Shown here one piece after another: positions 15,950 to 23,122 of a DNA stretch of 64,000 nucleotides. This DNA is from Sphingomicrobium sediminis. GTDB taxonomy: Bacteria; Pseudomonadota; Alphaproteobacteria; Sphingomonadales; Sphingomonadaceae. Below the pieces are notes generated by a model, which was given only the letters and a program-made list of their open reading frames with translations, had not been told where the DNA came from and made no database searches. The stretch is taken from contig NZ_JAMSHT010000001.1 of the NCBI RefSeq assembly GCF_023805295.1, positions 1,302,001-1,366,000 of the forward strand, given 5' to 3'. Numbering within the stretch: the stretch's first letter is position 1; each line of letters begins with the position of its first letter. The translations under genes and the position numbers were made by a program.

Positions 15950-16408
15950 CTAAAGCCCCTTCACTGCCTCCAGCACGTCTTCGACATGGCCTTTGACCCG
16001 GACCTTGGGCCAGACCTTCTTCACTTCGCCATCCTTGCCGATGATGAAGGTGGCGCGGTGCATGCCCATGAACTTGCGGCCATACATCTGCTTTTCGCCC
16101 CAGGTGCCGAAGGCGTCCGAAACGCTGCCATCCTCGTCGGCCACCAGGGGCACGGTGAGGTCGTGTTTCTGCGTAAAGCGGTCATGGCTCGCCATCGGAT
16201 CGCGCGACACGCCGATGACCTGCGCGCCAGCTTCCTTGAAGGCATCGAGATGCTCGGAAAAGCCGATCGCCTGCTTGGTGCAGCCGGGCGTATTATCCTT
16301 GGGATAGAAATAGAGCACCGTCGTGCAGGTGGGGCTGGCCAGGTCGACCATCTCGCCCGTGCCCGTCTTCACCGTGATCGACGGCACCTTGTCTCCAGCT
16401 TCAAGCAT
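15950..16408 (-). CDS. bcp: Thiol peroxidase of the Bcp/PrxQ family
   Basis: A peroxiredoxin reducing hydrogen peroxide and organic peroxides in the cytoplasm. It has 152 residues. The peroxidatic cysteine is C43 in KDNTPGCTKQAIGF. The position five residues later, where two-cysteine Bcp proteins have the resolving cysteine, is isoleucine (I48). GVSRDPMASHDRF and the C-terminal VKVRVKGHVEDVLEAV are typical. The frame is open far upstream, but the ATG at 16408 fits the family start and has GGAAGGGAG before it. It overlaps the end of glnE by 8 bases. Confidence 0.93.
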   Translation of the reverse strand: MLEAGDKVPSITVKTGTGEMVDLASPTCTTVLYFYPKDNTPGCTKQAIGFSEHLDAFKEAGAQVIGVSRDPMASHDRFTQKHDLTVPLVADEDGSVSDAFGTWGEKQMYGRKFMGMHRATFIIGKDGEVKKVWPKVRVKGHVEDVLEAVKGL

Positions 16409-19079
16409 CACGCACTCCCTTCCAAAATTCGCGTATCCTTTGCCGTGCGGCATCGACCGCGTCCAGCAAAGAGGGCCAATCGTCCGCCCCCAGCCGCTTG
16501 GCCACCAATTCGCGCGCTGCACGCGCCGGGCTGGCGCTATCGGGGGCGACCAGCCGCTGCAACACCAGCATCCTGGTCAGCAACGCATGATCCTGGCCAA
16601 GCGATGCAGGCGCATGTCCTGCCTCGATCAGCGCCTCGACAGCATCGCCCAAATCGGGGCACAACCCGTCGCGCGTCACCAATTGCGTCACGTGAACGGC
16701 AAATTCCATGTCGACCAACCCGCCCTCGCCCAGCTTGAGGTCGAGCGGACCGGCGGAGGGTTTGTGCAGCGCCATGTCGGCGCGCATCGTCGCTGCGTCG
16801 GCGCGCACCTGCGCGGGATCGCGGTCGAGGCCGTAAATGCCCGCCAGCACATCGGCGATACGATCCATGGCCGCCTCGCTGCCGAACAGGGGCCGGGCGC
16901 GGCACAGCGCCATATGCTCCCACGTCCATGCCTCGCCGCGCTGATAGGCATCGAACCCGCCGATCGACACGGCGAGCGGGCCGTTGGCGCCTTGCGGCCG
17001 CAGCCGGGTATCCACCTCGTAGAGCGGCCCGACGGCGGTCGGCACGCTGAGCGCGGAGGAAATGCGGCTGGCGAGGCGGTTGTAATAGTCGGTGGGGCCG
17101 AGCGGCTTGGGACCGTCCGATTGCGCGCTCACCGGCTCGTCGAACAGGAAGATGAGGTCGAGGTCGCTGGCATGGGTCAGCGCCTCGCCGCCCAGTCGGC
17201 CCAGTCCGAGAATGGCGAGCCCCTCGCCATCGTGCCGACCATGCGCGAGCTCGAACTCGGCGATCGTGCGGGCGGCCAGCGCGCGGATCGCACCTTCTGC
17301 AACATGCGCATAGCCGCGTGCGACATCGAGCGGGTCGGCGCTGTCGTCGATAAGCTGCACGCCCAACGCGAAACGCTTTTCGTTGATAAGCGCACGCGCA
17401 CGGTCGAGCGCGACGTCATAATCGAGCCCCTCCATCGCCGCCTCGATCCGCGCCGCAAAGGCGGCGGCGGAAACGACCGGGTCGAAGGCCGACTTGTCGA
17501 GCAATCCGTCGATCAGCCCGGGGCGCCGGGCCAATTGCTGCGCCAGCGCCGGCGATTGCGACAAGAGAGTTGCCAGCAAGCGCGCCAGCCGCGGTTCGGC
17601 CTCGAGCAGGCGGAAGAAGTTGATGCCGCTCGGCACGCGCTCGACGATATCGGCGAAGCGGTTGAAGGCATGGGCGGGATCGGGCGCCTCGCCGATCGCC
17701 TGCATCATGCCGGGGAGCATCGCCTCGAACGCTTCGCGCGCAGCTTCGGACCGCAAGGAGCGCGCACGCCCGGTCCGCCAATTGGCGATGAGCCGCGCGG
17801 CCGACGCGCCATCCTTGAGACCCATTCGCCCAAGCGACGCTTCGAGCGCCTCGGGATCGGCGGGCAGCCGGTTGCGATCTTCGGCAACCAGCTTGTCGAA
17901 CCGCTGCCCCACTGCCTCGACATGGTCGGCGAGGTCGGCGAGCCAAGCATCGCCATCGCTTGCGCCAGCGAGCTGCGCCGCCCCGTCGAGCGCGTCGCCA
18001 TCGCGCGGCAATTCATGGGTCTGTCGGTCGCCGACCATCTGCAGGCGATGTTCCGCCGTACGCAACGCTCGATAGGCGTCCGAGAGGATCGTCGCATCCT
18101 GCTCCTCCAGATGCCCCGCCTCGCATAGCGCCTTGATGGCATCGAGCGTGGCGGGTGCGCGTAGCGCTTCGTCCCGGCCGCCATGGATCATCTGCAGCGA
18201 CTGGGCGAAGAATTCGATTTCGCGAATGCCACCGCGCCCGCGCTTGAGATCGAAACCCGGGCCGAAGCGCTGGCCGGAGGCATAATGGTCGCGCACCTGC
18301 GCCGCGATCCCGCGAATTTCGTCGAGCACGCCGAAATCGATGGCGCGGCGCCAGACGAAGGGCTGGATGGCCTCGAGGAAGGTCGCGCCGAGCATGCGGT
18401 CGCCGCCGGCCACGCGCGAACGGATGAAGGCCGCGCGCTCCCAGCCCAAGGCCGCGCTCTCATAATGCGAGATGGCCGCGCCGACGGGGATTGCGATGGG
18501 TGTGACCTCGGAGGCCGGGCGCAGGCGCAGGTCGACCCGCGCCACATAGCCTTCGGGCCGGCGCTCCTGCATCAGCGAGACGAACTCGCGGGCGATGCGA
18601 ACCGCGCTCTCGCCGGGGTCTCCGCCCTCGCGCACCGGCACGCGGGCAGGGTCTGTCAGGAGGATGAGGTCGACATCGCTCGAATAGTTGAGCTCTCGGC
18701 TGCCGAGTTTGCCGAGAGCGAGGACGGTAATGCCTTCCAAGGGCGCGTCCGGCACGCGCTTGCGGATCGCCGCGGCCAGCGCGCGATCGATGGCATCGTC
18801 GGCGAATTCGGACAGCGCCGCAGTGACCTGTTCCAAACCCCACTCGTCCGACAGGTCGGCCAGCGCGACTGCCAAAGCCAGCGCGTCGCGACGCAAGCGC
18901 AGGCCCCGCCCGACATCCTCGTCGCCAATTTCCAGCGCAGCCGCAACGGCGGCATCGCTGCCTTCCTCAGCGAAGATCTCGACAATCGCCGGATTGCGCA
19001 TCGATGCGCCTTTCAGGAAGGGCGAATGGGCCGCAACCCGGTCCAGTGCACTTCGTCGATTGGCGGCGAATTCATCCAT
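16401..19079 (-). CDS. glnE: Bifunctional glutamine synthetase adenylyltransferase/adenylyl-removing enzyme
   Basis: GlnE adds AMP to, and removes it from, glutamine synthetase in response to PII and glutamine. It has 892 residues, close to the family norm. Two nucleotidyltransferase domains are visible: the N-terminal one with LGKLGSRELNYSSDVDL (about 128-144) and the C-terminal one with LGRLGGEALTHASDLDL. Between them are the GKGRGGIREIEF-like segments (here KRGRGGIREIEFFAQ). A GTG-free ATG at 19079 with GGGGGT seven bases upstream is preferred to one six codons earlier. bcp is coupled downstream. The start is divergent from a small NepR-like gene. Confidence 0.94.
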   Translation of the reverse strand: MDEFAANRRSALDRVAAHSPFLKGASMRNPAIVEIFAEEGSDAAVAAALEIGDEDVGRGLRLRRDALALAVALADLSDEWGLEQVTAALSEFADDAIDRALAAAIRKRVPDAPLEGITVLALGKLGSRELNYSSDVDLILLTDPARVPVREGGDPGESAVRIAREFVSLMQERRPEGYVARVDLRLRPASEVTPIAIPVGAAISHYESAALGWERAAFIRSRVAGGDRMLGATFLEAIQPFVWRRAIDFGVLDEIRGIAAQVRDHYASGQRFGPGFDLKRGRGGIREIEFFAQSLQMIHGGRDEALRAPATLDAIKALCEAGHLEEQDATILSDAYRALRTAEHRLQMVGDRQTHELPRDGDALDGAAQLAGASDGDAWLADLADHVEAVGQRFDKLVAEDRNRLPADPEALEASLGRMGLKDGASAARLIANWRTGRARSLRSEAAREAFEAMLPGMMQAIGEAPDPAHAFNRFADIVERVPSGINFFRLLEAEPRLARLLATLLSQSPALAQQLARRPGLIDGLLDKSAFDPVVSAAAFAARIEAAMEGLDYDVALDRARALINEKRFALGVQLIDDSADPLDVARGYAHVAEGAIRALAARTIAEFELAHGRHDGEGLAILGLGRLGGEALTHASDLDLIFLFDEPVSAQSDGPKPLGPTDYYNRLASRISSALSVPTAVGPLYEVDTRLRPQGANGPLAVSIGGFDAYQRGEAWTWEHMALCRARPLFGSEAAMDRIADVLAGIYGLDRDPAQVRADAATMRADMALHKPSAGPLDLKLGEGGLVDMEFAVHVTQLVTRDGLCPDLGDAVEALIEAGHAPASLGQDHALLTRMLVLQRLVAPDSASPARAARELVAKRLGADDWPSLLDAVDAARQRIREFWKGVRDA

Positions 19080-19120
19080 GCGACCCCCATGCACCATTCG
19101 TCGCTTTTCCGAAACAATCC

Positions 19121-19146
19121 GGAACCCGCGGCGGGTTTTTGCCGTT
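19121..19146 (+). promoter_or_regulatory. EcfG (general stress) promoter, consensus match
   Basis: GGAAC at 19121-19125 and CGTT at 19143-19146 with a 17-base spacer match the alphaproteobacterial EcfG consensus GGAAC-N16/17-CGTT exactly. Transcription would start near 19153 and read the small NepR-like gene. A match of this stringency is expected about once by chance in 64 kb, but its place in the stress locus makes it convincing. Confidence 0.78.
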
Positions 19147-19211
19147 TGTCAAGCGAGATGAACAGCCATGCCCGCCTGAAGCCCGCACCCTGCAGGGACG
19201 AGAAACGCAAT

Positions 19212-19346
19212 ATGTCGACCATGTTCGACGATTGCGACCGTCGCCGCTTGGCCGGTTCGCTGCGGCTGATCTACGACAACCCAAATTATGGGGTGCCCGA
19301 GGACATGCAGGCATTGCTCGAGGAATTGGACAAGGTCGCACTCTAG
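19212..19346 (+). CDS. Second NepR-like anti-sigma factor
   Basis: A very short gene (44 residues from ATG 19212; 62 residues from the in-frame ATG at 19158). RRRLAGSLRLIYDNPNYG followed by VPEDMQALLEELDKV has the two-helix NepR pattern, a first helix with LRxxYD and a second with VPxxxxxLLxxLD, also seen in the longer NepR at 21344. The start at 19212 is preferred because the predicted transcript begins near 19153, leaving almost no leader for 19158, and AGGGACGAG lies upstream of 19212. It sits behind a consensus EcfG promoter and converges on ecfG, whose stop is 25 bases away. Inferred role: extra feedback on EcfG or PhyR. Some NepR paralogues have diverged functions. Confidence 0.68.
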   Translation: MSTMFDDCDRRRLAGSLRLIYDNPNYGVPEDMQALLEELDKVAL

Positions 19347-19371
19347 CGGCGCGTACCAAGGTCATGGGCGA

Positions 19372-20037
19372 TCAATTGTCGCCCGACAGCTCATCCACCT
19401 GGTTCATGATATTCTGAAGCGCCGTATGCTCGGGATCGCTATCCTGGCTTTTGCGCGGCGGTAGCTCCTCGCTGTTGAGGAGATTCTCGAGCGCCACGCG
19501 GCCGCGTGCGACACGGCTCTTGATCGTACCCACGGCGCAGCCGCAAATCTGCGCGGCTTCCTCATAGGCAAAGCCACCCGCCCCGACGAGGATCAGTGCC
19601 TCGCGCTGCGGCTGCGGCAATTGCAACAAGGCGCGCTGCATGTCGCCAAGGTCGATATGCTTGTCCTGGTCCGCGGGCGCGGCGAGGATCTTGGCCGCCG
19701 TCACATCGTCCCACTCGCCCTTGAAGCGCGCGCGGCGCATCTGGCTGAGGAACAGGTTGCGAAGGATGATGAAGGTCCAGGCCCGCATGTTGGTGCCCGC
19801 CTGGAAGCGCTTGCGCGCCGCCCAGGCCTTTAGCAGCGTCTCCTGGACGAGATCGTCCGCGGTGTCGCGATTGCCCGAGAGCGAACGGCCGAACGCACGC
19901 AGGTGCGGAATGACCTGCGCCAGCTGCTCCTTGAACTCGTCGTCCGGCAGCGGAATCGGATCGGGCTTCTTGTCGCCCTCGTCCTTTGCCTTGTTCGACT
20001 TGGCCAATTGCTTCCCCCGGGGGCCTTTGAACCCCAA
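19372..20037 (-). CDS. ecfG: General stress sigma factor EcfG
   Basis: The ECF15-type sigma factor that directs the general stress regulon and is held by NepR. It has 221 residues from a TTG at 20037. There is no in-frame ATG before the sigma2 domain; a TTG ten codons in (20007), close behind GGGGGAAG, is another candidate. Sigma2 shows LRAFGRSLSGNRDTADDLVQ and the downstream WTFIILRN; sigma4 shows QREALILVGAGGFAYEEAAQ and ICGCAVGTIKSRVARGR. A charged C-terminal tail follows. An EcfG-like promoter lies upstream. ecfG, phyR and nepR are neighbours, as in other sphingomonads. Confidence 0.92.
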   Translation of the reverse strand: MGFKGPRGKQLAKSNKAKDEGDKKPDPIPLPDDEFKEQLAQVIPHLRAFGRSLSGNRDTADDLVQETLLKAWAARKRFQAGTNMRAWTFIILRNLFLSQMRRARFKGEWDDVTAAKILAAPADQDKHIDLGDMQRALLQLPQPQREALILVGAGGFAYEEAAQICGCAVGTIKSRVARGRVALENLLNSEELPPRKSQDSDPEHTALQNIMNQVDELSGDN

Positions 20038-20201: not shown

Positions 20202-21002
20202 TTAAGCGGGCACCGTCGCGGCATCGAAGAACAATGCCTGGCTGATCGCCGCCTTCACCGTCGAGCGCTGGAACGGCTTGGTGATGAGGAAGGTCGGCTC
20301 GGGCCGTTCGCCGGTCAGCAGGCGTTCCGGGAAGGCGGTGATGAAGATCACCGGCACGCGGAATTCGCCGAGGATATCCTTTACCGCATCGATGCCCGAA
20401 CTGTCGTCGGCCAGCTGGATGTCGGCAAGGACGAGGGTCGGACGGTCGGCCTTGGCCTGCGCAACGGCCTCGTCGCGGGTCACCGCCACGCCGGTCACGT
20501 TATGGCCGAGGTCGCGCACGATCGTCTCGATATCCATCGCGATGATCGGCTCATCCTCGATGATGAGGACTTCGGCGCGGGTCTGCTTCTCGATCTCTGC
20601 CAGCGCTTCGCTGACGAGGTTTTCGACATCTTCGGGGCTGCTGTCGATCAGATAGGCGGTATCCTCGTTGGAAAATCCCTCGAGGCTGGTCAGCAGCAGG
20701 GCCTGGCGCGACAGCGGCGTGATCTGCGCGAGGCGCGCCTGCGCAATATGCTCGGGGCCATCGCCGGCAACCGCGCCGGGATCGCTGTCATCGTCGATAT
20801 GTGCGGTCGACCAGATGGCGTGGAAGATCCGGTAGAGACCAAGGCGCGGGTCGCGGTCGCGCGGGAATTCGTCGGGTTCGGCAACGATGGTTTCCAGCGT
20901 CGTGCGCACGAAATTGTCGCCATGGACCTGGCTGCCGGTCAGCGCGCGCGCATAGCGGCGCAAGAAAGGCAGATGAGGGGCGAGTTCCTGACCGAGAGAC
21001 AT
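20202..21002 (-). CDS. phyR: Response regulator PhyR with sigma-like domain
   Basis: The anti-anti-sigma switch of the general stress response: when phosphorylated, its sigma-like domain binds NepR and frees EcfG. It has 266 residues from ATG 21002 (GGAG upstream). The N-terminal half is a sigma-like domain (about 1-140) with LPFLRRYARALTGSQ and PLSRQALLLTSLEGF. The C-terminal receiver (about 144-262) has the acidic pair in IIEDEP, the phosphoacceptor D194 in VLADIQLADDSSG, TAFPE and the conserved lysine in ITKPF. The stop is followed by 164 bases that hold the ecfG promoter. Confidence 0.95.
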   Translation of the reverse strand: MSLGQELAPHLPFLRRYARALTGSQVHGDNFVRTTLETIVAEPDEFPRDRDPRLGLYRIFHAIWSTAHIDDDSDPGAVAGDGPEHIAQARLAQITPLSRQALLLTSLEGFSNEDTAYLIDSSPEDVENLVSEALAEIEKQTRAEVLIIEDEPIIAMDIETIVRDLGHNVTGVAVTRDEAVAQAKADRPTLVLADIQLADDSSGIDAVKDILGEFRVPVIFITAFPERLLTGERPEPTFLITKPFQRSTVKAAISQALFFDAATVPA

Positions 21003-21343
21003 ATAGACTTGCACTCCTGATTGGCGATGCGACCCTTCAACAGTGGGACCGTTTCGCCAGCGTTTCAATACCGCGCCTGCCCGAATGCGGGGGATCGGGA
21101 CCATTCGGCGCGGCCTGATTGCATTGGGTTCCCCGCAACCATTCTTGGTGTGGAACAAAGCTGGGCGCGTTTGGTTTCCCCATCCAACACCGCAGCGACG
21201 AATAATTCTCGCAGGTCGGTGGGCAGGAGGGAATCGACGCGCTTGACGACAAGAAGCGCGGATGCTTTCTCGCCATCCGATGTAAACGGTGAACGTTCTC
21301 GCGATCCGTTGGTTAGTAAGTCGATGCGTACAGGAGTTGCACT
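21003..21343. other. 341-base divergent intergenic region between phyR and nepR
   Basis: No credible gene is present in either strand. It holds the phyR Shine-Dalgarno (GGAG), the nepR Shine-Dalgarno (CAGGAG at 21332-21337) and a back-to-back pair of EcfG-like elements at 21152-21179. A GAACGTTC palindrome lies at 21291-21298. The rest shows no further structure that I can name. Confidence 0.6.
21152..21179. promoter_or_regulatory. Candidate overlapping divergent EcfG-like promoters (phyR / nepR)
   Basis: On the plus strand GGAAC-N16-GGTT (21152-21176) points to nepR. On the minus strand GAAAC-N16-TGTT, one base off at -35, uses the same DNA in the other direction towards phyR. Both are imperfect at -10, so this is a candidate only. 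Confidence 0.4.
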
Positions 21344-21556
21344 ATGGCGCGCGACAATCCGCGCGAAGGGGATGTGAGGTTGAGTGGTAAAAAAGACAGC
21401 GGCACTGCGGACGCCAAGTCCGGCGCAGCGCGCCGCACCACGACCGCACGCCCCAAAAGCGAACAGGTCAGCAGGGCATTGAAATCGGTCTATGACGACA
21501 CGCTGCGCGAAGACATTCCTGCCGAATTGCGGGACCTGCTGGGCAAGCTCGACTAA
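21344..21556 (+). CDS. nepR: Anti-sigma factor NepR
   Basis: A 70-residue anti-sigma factor for EcfG. The basic, unstructured N-terminus (about 1-38) precedes the two-helix NepR core: EQVSRALKSVYDDTLREDIP followed by AELRDLLGKLD. Start ATG follows CAGGAG with normal spacing. It is the first gene of a nepR-phyP pair (18 bases apart) that is divergent from phyR, so PhyR and its target are separated by a shared control region. Confidence 0.92.
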   Translation: MARDNPREGDVRLSGKKDSGTADAKSGAARRTTTARPKSEQVSRALKSVYDDTLREDIPAELRDLLGKLD

Positions 21557-21574: not shown

Positions 21575-23122
21575 ATGAGCACTGACGACAACAAGATTGC
21601 GGGCCGCATCTCGACGCCGTTCAAGATGCTGGTTGCGATCGCGCTCGCGCTGCTTCCGATCGGCGGGCTGATCATCTGGAACGCGGTCGCCGAATTCAAC
21701 GACAGCCGACAAGCGCTGCGCGGCCAGGCGCAAGCGGAAATGTTTGCCGCGGCGCGTTCGGCCGAGACACTGATCGCCCGCAACACACTCGCACTGCGCG
21801 TCGCAGCTTATGGCGCGGTCGCTGCGGGGGAAGCCAATCCGTGCATGGCAGCACGCGAAGCTCTTTCGGTCGCTCCGGCTGTCGCTCGTGACTTCGTCAT
21901 CTCGGACGCCGATGGCAACGAGATATGCGGGGACTTGCCCACCGTGCCACCGCCCAACGGCGTCGCCGATGCGCGCGATCCGATCGCTTTGTGGGTCGAC
22001 CCTGCAAATGACGGCATCGTCCTCCAGGTCGCGGTGCCCGGCGCAACCGCGACCGGTCGAATCCAACGGCAGGAAATCCTCGAAGCCGTCGCGGCAGACG
22101 GGACATCGATCGATGAATTCAGTATCGGTGATGGCGAACGCCGGCTCGCGGTTGCCTCAGCCGAGCCGACACGCCGCCCCGGTATCGCAACGGAACAGCT
22201 CAATGTCCCCATCGCGGGCCAGCGGCTCGAGATGAATGCGGCGACCAGCTACCAGGATTTCACCAATCGTGACCGTTTGAGCTTCGTCCTGCCGGTCATC
22301 ATGTGGGCCTTTGCCGCCCTCCTTTCCTGGGTTTTGGTCCATTTCCTGCTGATCCGACCGCTGCGCCGTCTCAATCATGCCGTGCGCGAATATGACGTCG
22401 ATACCGACGATTTCGCGCTGCCCGAACGGCTCGGCCCGGCGCGCGAAATCCATGAACTCGGCAACAGCTTCATGGCAGCCGTCGGTCGCATGGAAGAGAG
22501 CGAAGACGAGCTGCGGACCGCGATCGACAATCAGAAGAAACTGGTTCGCGAAGTCCACCACCGCGTGAAGAACAACCTGCAGGTCGTCGCCAGCTTGCTC
22601 AACATCCACTCGCGCGGGGTCGAGGGCGAGGAGGCCAAGGCTGCCTACACCGGCATCGGGCGGCGGGTCGAAGCGCTGGCGGTCGTCCACCGCAACCACT
22701 TTGCCGAGATCGAAGAAAGCCGCGGGATCCAGCTGCGCCCGCTGCTCACCGAACTGGCCGCCGGCCTGCGCGCCTCGGCGAGCAATGCGGGCCATGCCTT
22801 CGACCTCGACCTCGACGCTGCGGCCACGACGCAGGATGCCGCCGTCTCGGCTGCCTTCTTCGTCACCGAGGTGGTCGAGCATGCCTTGCTGTCGGGCGGC
22901 GATGCAGCGATCGAAATCGGGCTTCGCCGCACCAGCGAGCTGACCGCGCGGCTGTCGGTCGCGAGCGCCGACCTCGTCAGCGGAGAGGATGCGCCGCCGC
23001 AACAGGCGCAGTTCGAGCGGATCGTCGAAGGCCTGTCGCGCCAATTGCGCTCACCGCTCGACAAGAAACTCGGCAACTACAGCGTGGAAATCCCCGTTTT
23101 CCCTGAAAAATCAAGCGACTAA
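21575..23122 (+). CDS. phyP: PhyP-type membrane histidine kinase/phosphatase
   Basis: A 515-residue sensor: helix at about 18-36, a periplasmic domain of about 200 residues, a second helix at about 236-260, HAMP (about 261-312), and a HisKA_2 dimerisation helix VREVHHRVKNNLQVVASLLN with H328. The ATP-binding domain is degenerate: the N-box region reads VTEVVEHALLSGG instead of ELxxNAxKH, and no DxGxG or GLGL boxes follow. In Sphingomonas sp. Fr1 the equivalent PhyP is a negative regulator of PhyR, probably a phosphatase; loss of the ATP site fits this. It is cotranscribed with nepR. Confidence 0.85.
   Translation: MSTDDNKIAGRISTPFKMLVAIALALLPIGGLIIWNAVAEFNDSRQALRGQAQAEMFAAARSAETLIARNTLALRVAAYGAVAAGEANPCMAAREALSVAPAVARDFVISDADGNEICGDLPTVPPPNGVADARDPIALWVDPANDGIVLQVAVPGATATGRIQRQEILEAVAADGTSIDEFSIGDGERRLAVASAEPTRRPGIATEQLNVPIAGQRLEMNAATSYQDFTNRDRLSFVLPVIMWAFAALLSWVLVHFLLIRPLRRLNHAVREYDVDTDDFALPERLGPAREIHELGNSFMAAVGRMEESEDELRTAIDNQKKLVREVHHRVKNNLQVVASLLNIHSRGVEGEEAKAAYTGIGRRVEALAVVHRNHFAEIEESRGIQLRPLLTELAAGLRASASNAGHAFDLDLDAAATTQDAAVSAAFFVTEVVEHALLSGGDAAIEIGLRRTSELTARLSVASADLVSGEDAPPQQAQFERIVEGLSRQLRSPLDKKLGNYSVEIPVFPEKSSD

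Follow-up and report, generated by a model that had tools for sequence, protein, structure and literature searches.

A Probable nepR2 Gene Convergent With ecfG: Conservation Beside the Sigma Factor Gene and a Predicted, Nearly Leaderless mRNA

NepR2 in Described General Stress Response Systems

The closest described counterpart of the gene considered here is NepR2 of Sphingomonas melonis Fr1 (#1448, encoded next to ecfG), which is described as a negative feedback regulator whose expression depends on EcfG (Gottschlich et al., 2019; PMC6599016). Knockout of Fr1 nepR2 raised the activity of a general stress response (GSR) reporter and overexpression lowered it; overexpression also cut salt resistance, NepR2 bound PhyR in co-immunoprecipitation, alanine at L31 or F35 weakened it (section 59), and a plasmid-borne copy acts in trans (PMC6599016). 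In two-hybrid work, for which data are not shown there, NepR2 and EcfG were both unstable when present together, unlike NepR and EcfG; the authors consider that possibly no complex forms and suggest that NepR2 is a PhyR antagonist (PMC6599016). In the Fr1 numbering PhyT is #1443 and nepR #1444 (PMC6599016). The same authors also describe MexAM1_meta2p0735 of M. extorquens as a PhyR antagonist (PMC6599016); the term meta2p0735 is absent from the available text of the M. extorquens paper PMC4814048.

In the literature found, an ecfG-flanking NepR2 has been characterised in one strain, Fr1. The name requires some caution, as the available descriptions also apply it to a differently arranged gene, nepR2 (SGRAN_1162) of Sphingopyxis granuli TFA, whose expression is lost without EcfG2 and whose product is called a negative-feedback anti-sigma factor (PMC7083833, PMC11165598). 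Compared by published description, the TFA gene shares the name and is NepR-like, but it lies upstream of ecfG1 with a 4 bp overlap in one operon, whereas the gene described below is convergent with ecfG (PMC7083833). The local copy is very probably of an already known kind, and what is added here is evidence on how widely NepR2 occurs, on its start codon and on its leader.

A Small Unannotated Frame Beside ecfG

The window (the whole 64,000-nucleotide stretch of Sphingomicrobium sediminis DNA analysed) contains an unannotated frame of 62 codons on the + strand, running from ATG 19158 to a stop codon that ends at 19346 (Table 1); an alternative start in the same frame, ATG 19212, would give 44 residues. 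Its stop lies 25 bases from that of ecfG (19372, opposite strand), for which TTG 20037 and 20007 are candidate start codons. The frame, promoter match and distances given in an earlier note on this DNA all proved correct on recomputation. We read the frame as nepR2, encoding a small paralogue of NepR that would depend on EcfG for its expression and act as a brake on the general stress response, with a probability of roughly 0.86.

Table 1. Coordinates of the stress response island and its flank in the window.
Feature	Position	Strand	Basis
glnE (name presumed), conserved flank, divergent from nepR2	16401..19097	-	Position beside ecfG
EcfG-type promoter of nepR2, GGAAC-N17-CGTT	19121..19146	+	Exact match and conserved geometry
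nepR2, 62-residue NepR-like protein (probable)	19158..19346	+	Start 11 nt after -10 element; profile match; convergent with ecfG as in relatives
NepR-like core LRLIYD...VPEDMQALLEELD (helix 1 / loop / helix 2)	19260..19331	+	Alignments
ecfG, general stress response sigma factor	19372..20037	-	Sigma70_r2, Sigma70_r4_2, PhyR_sigma2; convergent with nepR2
phyR, response regulator, anti-anti-sigma factor	20202..21002	-	NCBIfam NF006623 (PhyR family) 373.8 bits (cut-off 240); PhyR_sigma2 and PhyR_sigma-like
EcfG-type promoter of canonical nepR, GGAAC-N16-GGTT	21152..21176	+	Sequence match
Canonical nepR, anti-sigma factor	21344..21556	+	Pfam NepR 32.7 bits (cut-off 25.7); Sphingomonas NepR profile 42.4 bits
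HisKA_2/HWE-type kinase gene, in phyT position	21575..23122	+	HisKA_2 63.6 bits

Pfam and NCBIfam, which found nothing in the frame at E<=10, both miss this copy. Across the whole genome the Pfam NepR model matched the canonical nepR alone, and the nepR2 frame, unlike canonical nepR, stays below the PF18557 cut-off. Direct searches with the protein itself failed because it is short and divergent: against a 5.8-billion-sequence database its single match was itself, among 61 genomes (its own and 60 relatives) only the match in its own genome was returned, a pattern search of genome contigs gave 377 matches with no confirmed relative, and the best PDB matches had E 0.26 or worse. Position beside ecfG was therefore used to find counterparts.

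Counterparts Beside ecfG in Related Genomes

Two samples were used. The first comprised 61 genomes of the same genus, drawn from a larger group and including the window's own; ecfG was found in 59, and the other 2 were left out of the counts. The second comprised the best 80 of 244 loci retrieved with the PhyR domain of PDB 2lfw, which we take to be the Fr1 complex; nearly all are titled Sphingomonas. The search reached 500 nt from the ecfG stop in the genus and 700 nt in the Sphingomonas-type loci. The earlier note had proposed that a frame unconserved in relatives would speak against the gene; in fact, 57 of the 58 other same-genus loci have a small convergent NepR-like frame adjoining ecfG, and at least 61 of the 80 Sphingomonas-type loci (the best 80 of 244) have a counterpart no more than 700 nt from the ecfG stop. 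The sequences and pairs behind these and later NepR2 counts are related rather than independent. NepR2 would thus seem, as these counts suggest, to be a regular part of the stress response island in the sampled genus and Sphingomonas loci.

By pattern, 20 of the 139 loci gave no frame, one in the genus (L016) and 19 of the Sphingomonas type. Four of the latter (L100, L110, L127, L138) hold NepR2 candidates in other listings, so that 61 of 80 is a lower bound. When seven pattern-negative loci were re-examined to 1.5 kb, the gene was found 0.7-1.1 kb away in three (L076, L078, L087), and no nepR2 frame was present within 1.5 kb of ecfG in L016, L066, L068 and L108. The canonical nepR was recognised in 79 of the 80 Sphingomonas-type loci. 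An order-wide profile search (match in 66 of 147 genomes) was rejected as a count of NepR2 because many of its matches cover the core only and may be canonical NepR.

The flank is conserved as well: glnE lies next to ecfG, in the same orientation, in 58 of the 59 same-genus loci counted with the window, and 76 of the 80 Sphingomonas-type loci contain a match to it. Gene order in L062 and L063 is kinase, phyR, ecfG, NepR2 frame and glnE, as in the window. Both are Fr1-like loci. The PhyR domain of L063 shares 99% identity with the query, and its NepR2 frame carries L31, R32, F35 and M46 at the exact numbers given in the available text of the Fr1 NepR2 paper (PMC6599016). The window gene resembles Fr1 nepR2 in adjoining ecfG within a phyT-nepR-phyR-ecfG island, with flanks as in L062 and L063, in small size, in its LR..[YF] and LL..[LI]D core and in its profile match. 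Fr1 NepR2 is EcfG-dependent, and an EcfG-type promoter is present at both the window gene and its counterpart in L063. The window protein differs from that of L063, to which it is 23% identical, in an inter-helix loop two residues longer.

Two minor observations concern the records themselves. Those titled Arthrobacter sp. TPD3018 and Microvirga sp. SRT01 (L063 and L102) carry Sphingomonas-type stress islands, so their names look wrong. In L068, nominally Sphingomonas melonis AS2.3, no nepR2 is recognisable within 1.5 kb of ecfG and the locus has no glnE match, so this flank seems rearranged.

Probable NepR2 Rather Than NepR Lineage

A profile of 61 Sphingomonas NepR2s, from which the window and its genus were excluded, placed the window frame first among 3,068 sequences (the frame together with the 1,066 further open frames in the window, 2,000 shuffled sequences and canonical nepR) at 23.3 bits (E 5e-6), against 11.9 bits for the best shuffle and 11.8 for the window's canonical nepR. 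A profile of 79 canonical Sphingomonas NepRs gave 42.4 bits to the window's canonical nepR and 6.0 bits (E 3.2) to the nepR2 frame. For 57 of 58 same-genus NepR2s, window included, the NepR2 profile outscored the NepR profile; in L008, of the same genus, the NepR profile (20.3) was slightly higher than the NepR2 profile (16.8). Profiles built within the genus gave another picture: that of 53 more distant NepR2s scored the window frame at 0.7 bits (rank 308), and that of all 57 others at 11.0 bits (E 0.054), with 11.0 for the best shuffle and 12.0 for canonical nepR. The Sphingomonas profiles thus place the frame in the NepR2 lineage and not in that of NepR, and the same-genus profiles count against this placement. 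The presence of a second NepR-like gene, as put forward in the earlier note, is borne out by the Sphingomonas NepR2 profile and by the conserved place beside ecfG.

Other NepR2s are 15-33% identical to the window protein in pairwise comparison, so orthology rests on position and profile. The NepR2 family is fast-changing, and the window copy stands with L004-L006 and L008 apart from the common same-genus form, which reads ALRRAF...DFxELLRxLN as against LRLIYD...VPEDMQALLEELD in the window. The two positions whose alteration weakened Fr1 NepR2 are conserved in the window, where L35 and Y39 correspond in the alignment to L31 and F35. Several Sphingomonas NepR2s likewise carry tyrosine at the position of F35, and the matching residue of canonical NepR is Y36. 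A one-residue-shorter L-to-M spacing was considered as a mark of NepR2 and dropped: the distance from the proline to the methionine is five residues in L063 (M46) and three in the window (M50). An internal methionine, in the sequence MDRR, recurs at the same place in many same-genus NepR2s, about 60 nt upstream of the core, and might be a second start; the window has CDRR instead, closer to the core.

Promoter, Start Codon and Leader

The promoter consists of GGAAC (19121-19125) and CGTT (19143-19146), separated by a spacer of exactly 17 bases. Taken alone, the match is at chance level: GGAAC-N15-18-CGTT occurs 3 times in the window, where 1.62 occurrences are expected, and a count of 3 or more arises in 19 of 100 shuffles. 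Its geometry across relatives is more informative. Among the 119 NepR2 loci, window included, 111 have a G[GCA]AAC-N16/17-NGTT site that ends 6-13 nt upstream of the start codon, and in 105 of these the distance is 8-11 nt; start codons were chosen here partly by their promoters. For this reason the count was repeated with a promoter-blind start rule, under which 3 of the 119 loci had no ATG; the site then stood at the expected distance in 98 of 116, compared with a mean of 0.8 (maximum 5) in shuffles and 0-5 at 20 shifted positions. GAAAC or GCAAC serves as the -35 element in 109 of the 111 loci, and GGAAC, the full consensus, is found solely in the window and L056; L063, by comparison, has GCAAC.

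Between ATG 19158 and ATG 19212, a choice that the earlier note had left open, the conserved promoter-to-start distance (98 of 116 blind starts, 111 of 119 loci) favours 19158. Transcripts of ECF sigma factors begin a few bases after the -10 element. Given this habit and the fixed distance, the nepR2 mRNA would be leaderless or carry a leader of a few bases. The fixed distance thus yields a sharp prediction, a nearly leaderless nepR2 mRNA, together with a likely start codon. A literature search combining 'leaderless' and 'EcfG' returned no prior report, EcfG appearing merely in the reference list of the match.

Unlike nepR2, canonical nepR has its promoter further from the first in-frame start. 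An EcfG-like site precedes it in 76 of 79 Sphingomonas loci, at a median distance of 38 nt and within 12 nt in 6. The GGAAC...GGTT form seen in the window also lies upstream of nepR in eight Sphingomonas loci among those listed, and Table 1 of the Fr1 paper, as available, gives the same form (PMC6599016).

Two further motifs were seen near these sites. GGAAC-N16-TGTT upstream of ecfG (20144-20120, - strand) may be an EcfG-type promoter that drives ecfG itself. Within the nepR2 promoter, the spacer (19125-19140, + strand) reads CCCG-CGG-CGGG-TTTTT, a small hairpin and then a run of five T; it is absent from the output of the terminator scan, for which five pairs are required.

Alternative Explanations

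Comparison with relatives lifts the frame above chance and confirms it as real: its position and promoter spacing are conserved, a NepR2 profile recognises it, and it bears a signal of purifying selection. It is accordingly most improbable that it is a spurious product of GC-rich DNA, in which long stop-free stretches are common, even though the frame is the end of a 387-codon ORF that stays open back to 18183 antisense to glnE and chance would account for the promoter match by itself. The selection estimate, a pooled pN/pS of 0.37 over 291 NepR2 pairs differing at 4-35% of bases, is indicative because the pairs overlap; it points to purifying selection on the protein frame. That selection also speaks against the idea that the transcript made by EcfG serves, in part or entirely, as an antisense RNA against the ecfG 3' end. 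This idea was raised because no more than 25 bases lie between the converging genes and no terminator is visible: a scan of 19000-19700 found no intrinsic terminator, none lying between nepR2 and ecfG, and 58 of the 59 same-genus loci, counting the window, keep the convergent arrangement. The stop-to-stop gap, however, ranges from -20 to 409 nt and reaches 0.7-1.1 kb in three further loci; since it varies so widely, overlap with ecfG appears unconstrained. With plasmid-borne NepR2 acting in trans in Fr1, by the available account (PMC6599016), an antisense role is improbable.

A recent in-genome duplicate of canonical nepR, outside the NepR2 lineage, would explain why LRLIYD...VPEDMQALLEELD looks by eye more NepR-like than ALRRAF...DFxELLRxLN, why the same-genus NepR2 profiles rank the window frame under canonical nepR, and perhaps the scores of L008 (20.3 with the NepR profile, 16.8 with the NepR2 profile). 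Such an origin is very improbable in view of 23.3 bits with the Sphingomonas NepR2 profile against 6.0 with the NepR profile, and of a place, orientation, flanks and promoter geometry that match the NepR2 of relatives. A different question is whether the small protein is a classical anti-sigma factor that binds and titrates EcfG directly, like NepR. The two-hybrid instability of Fr1 NepR2 with EcfG, in contrast to NepR with EcfG (data not shown in that paper; PMC6599016), and the failure of the canonical NepR profile to recognise the frame make this unlikely, although the protein has the NepR-like LR..Y and P..M..LL..LD pattern, with M50 three residues after the proline as in NepR of 2lfw. AlphaFold2, given the window protein and 36 Sphingomonas NepR2s, placed helices at 24-39 and 48-61 at low confidence (mean pLDDT 64.7, pTM 0.32), which is weak evidence but would fit a two-helix protein that may be ordered only on its partner.

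Proposed Role in the Stress Response

The window NepR2, which may share the two-helix pattern of canonical NepR, would take part in the same partner switch. Under stress PhyR is phosphorylated and draws NepR off EcfG, as is established for the family. Free EcfG would then transcribe nepR2 from 19121-19146, to judge from the site and its conservation, with transcription probably starting 0-5 bases before ATG 19158. NepR2 would occupy PhyR, as co-immunoprecipitation showed for its Fr1 counterpart, leaving NepR presumably free to recapture EcfG, and the response would be damped or shut off; damping was seen in Fr1 in reporter and salt assays. By analogy, nepR2 of the window most likely serves as a delayed brake: by occupying PhyR, its product would let NepR recapture EcfG. 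The earlier suggestion of a second NepR-like gene under EcfG control, working as a feedback brake through PhyR, is supported in this respect and corresponds to the experimental picture of Fr1 NepR2 in the available account. Binding of EcfG, which the earlier note had also considered, is less favoured by analogy with the Fr1 two-hybrid instability described there.

A wider reading is tentative and, taken as a whole, somewhat doubtful: NepR2 might be a nearly universal, fast-changing second brake in this genus and Sphingomonas, made from a conserved leaderless mRNA whose initiation pathway differs from that of the longer-leader nepR, so that the brake is made preferentially when stress alters initiation. 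Such preferential synthesis would then time the shut-off.

At the other end of the island, the kinase gene in the phyT position has counterparts in the same place that are 35-37% identical in the six Sphingomonas loci listed, with a match in 79 of 80. Its product is PhyK-related, scoring 84 bits with the PhyK model, far under the cut-off of 750; Fr1 has the phosphotransferase PhyT there.
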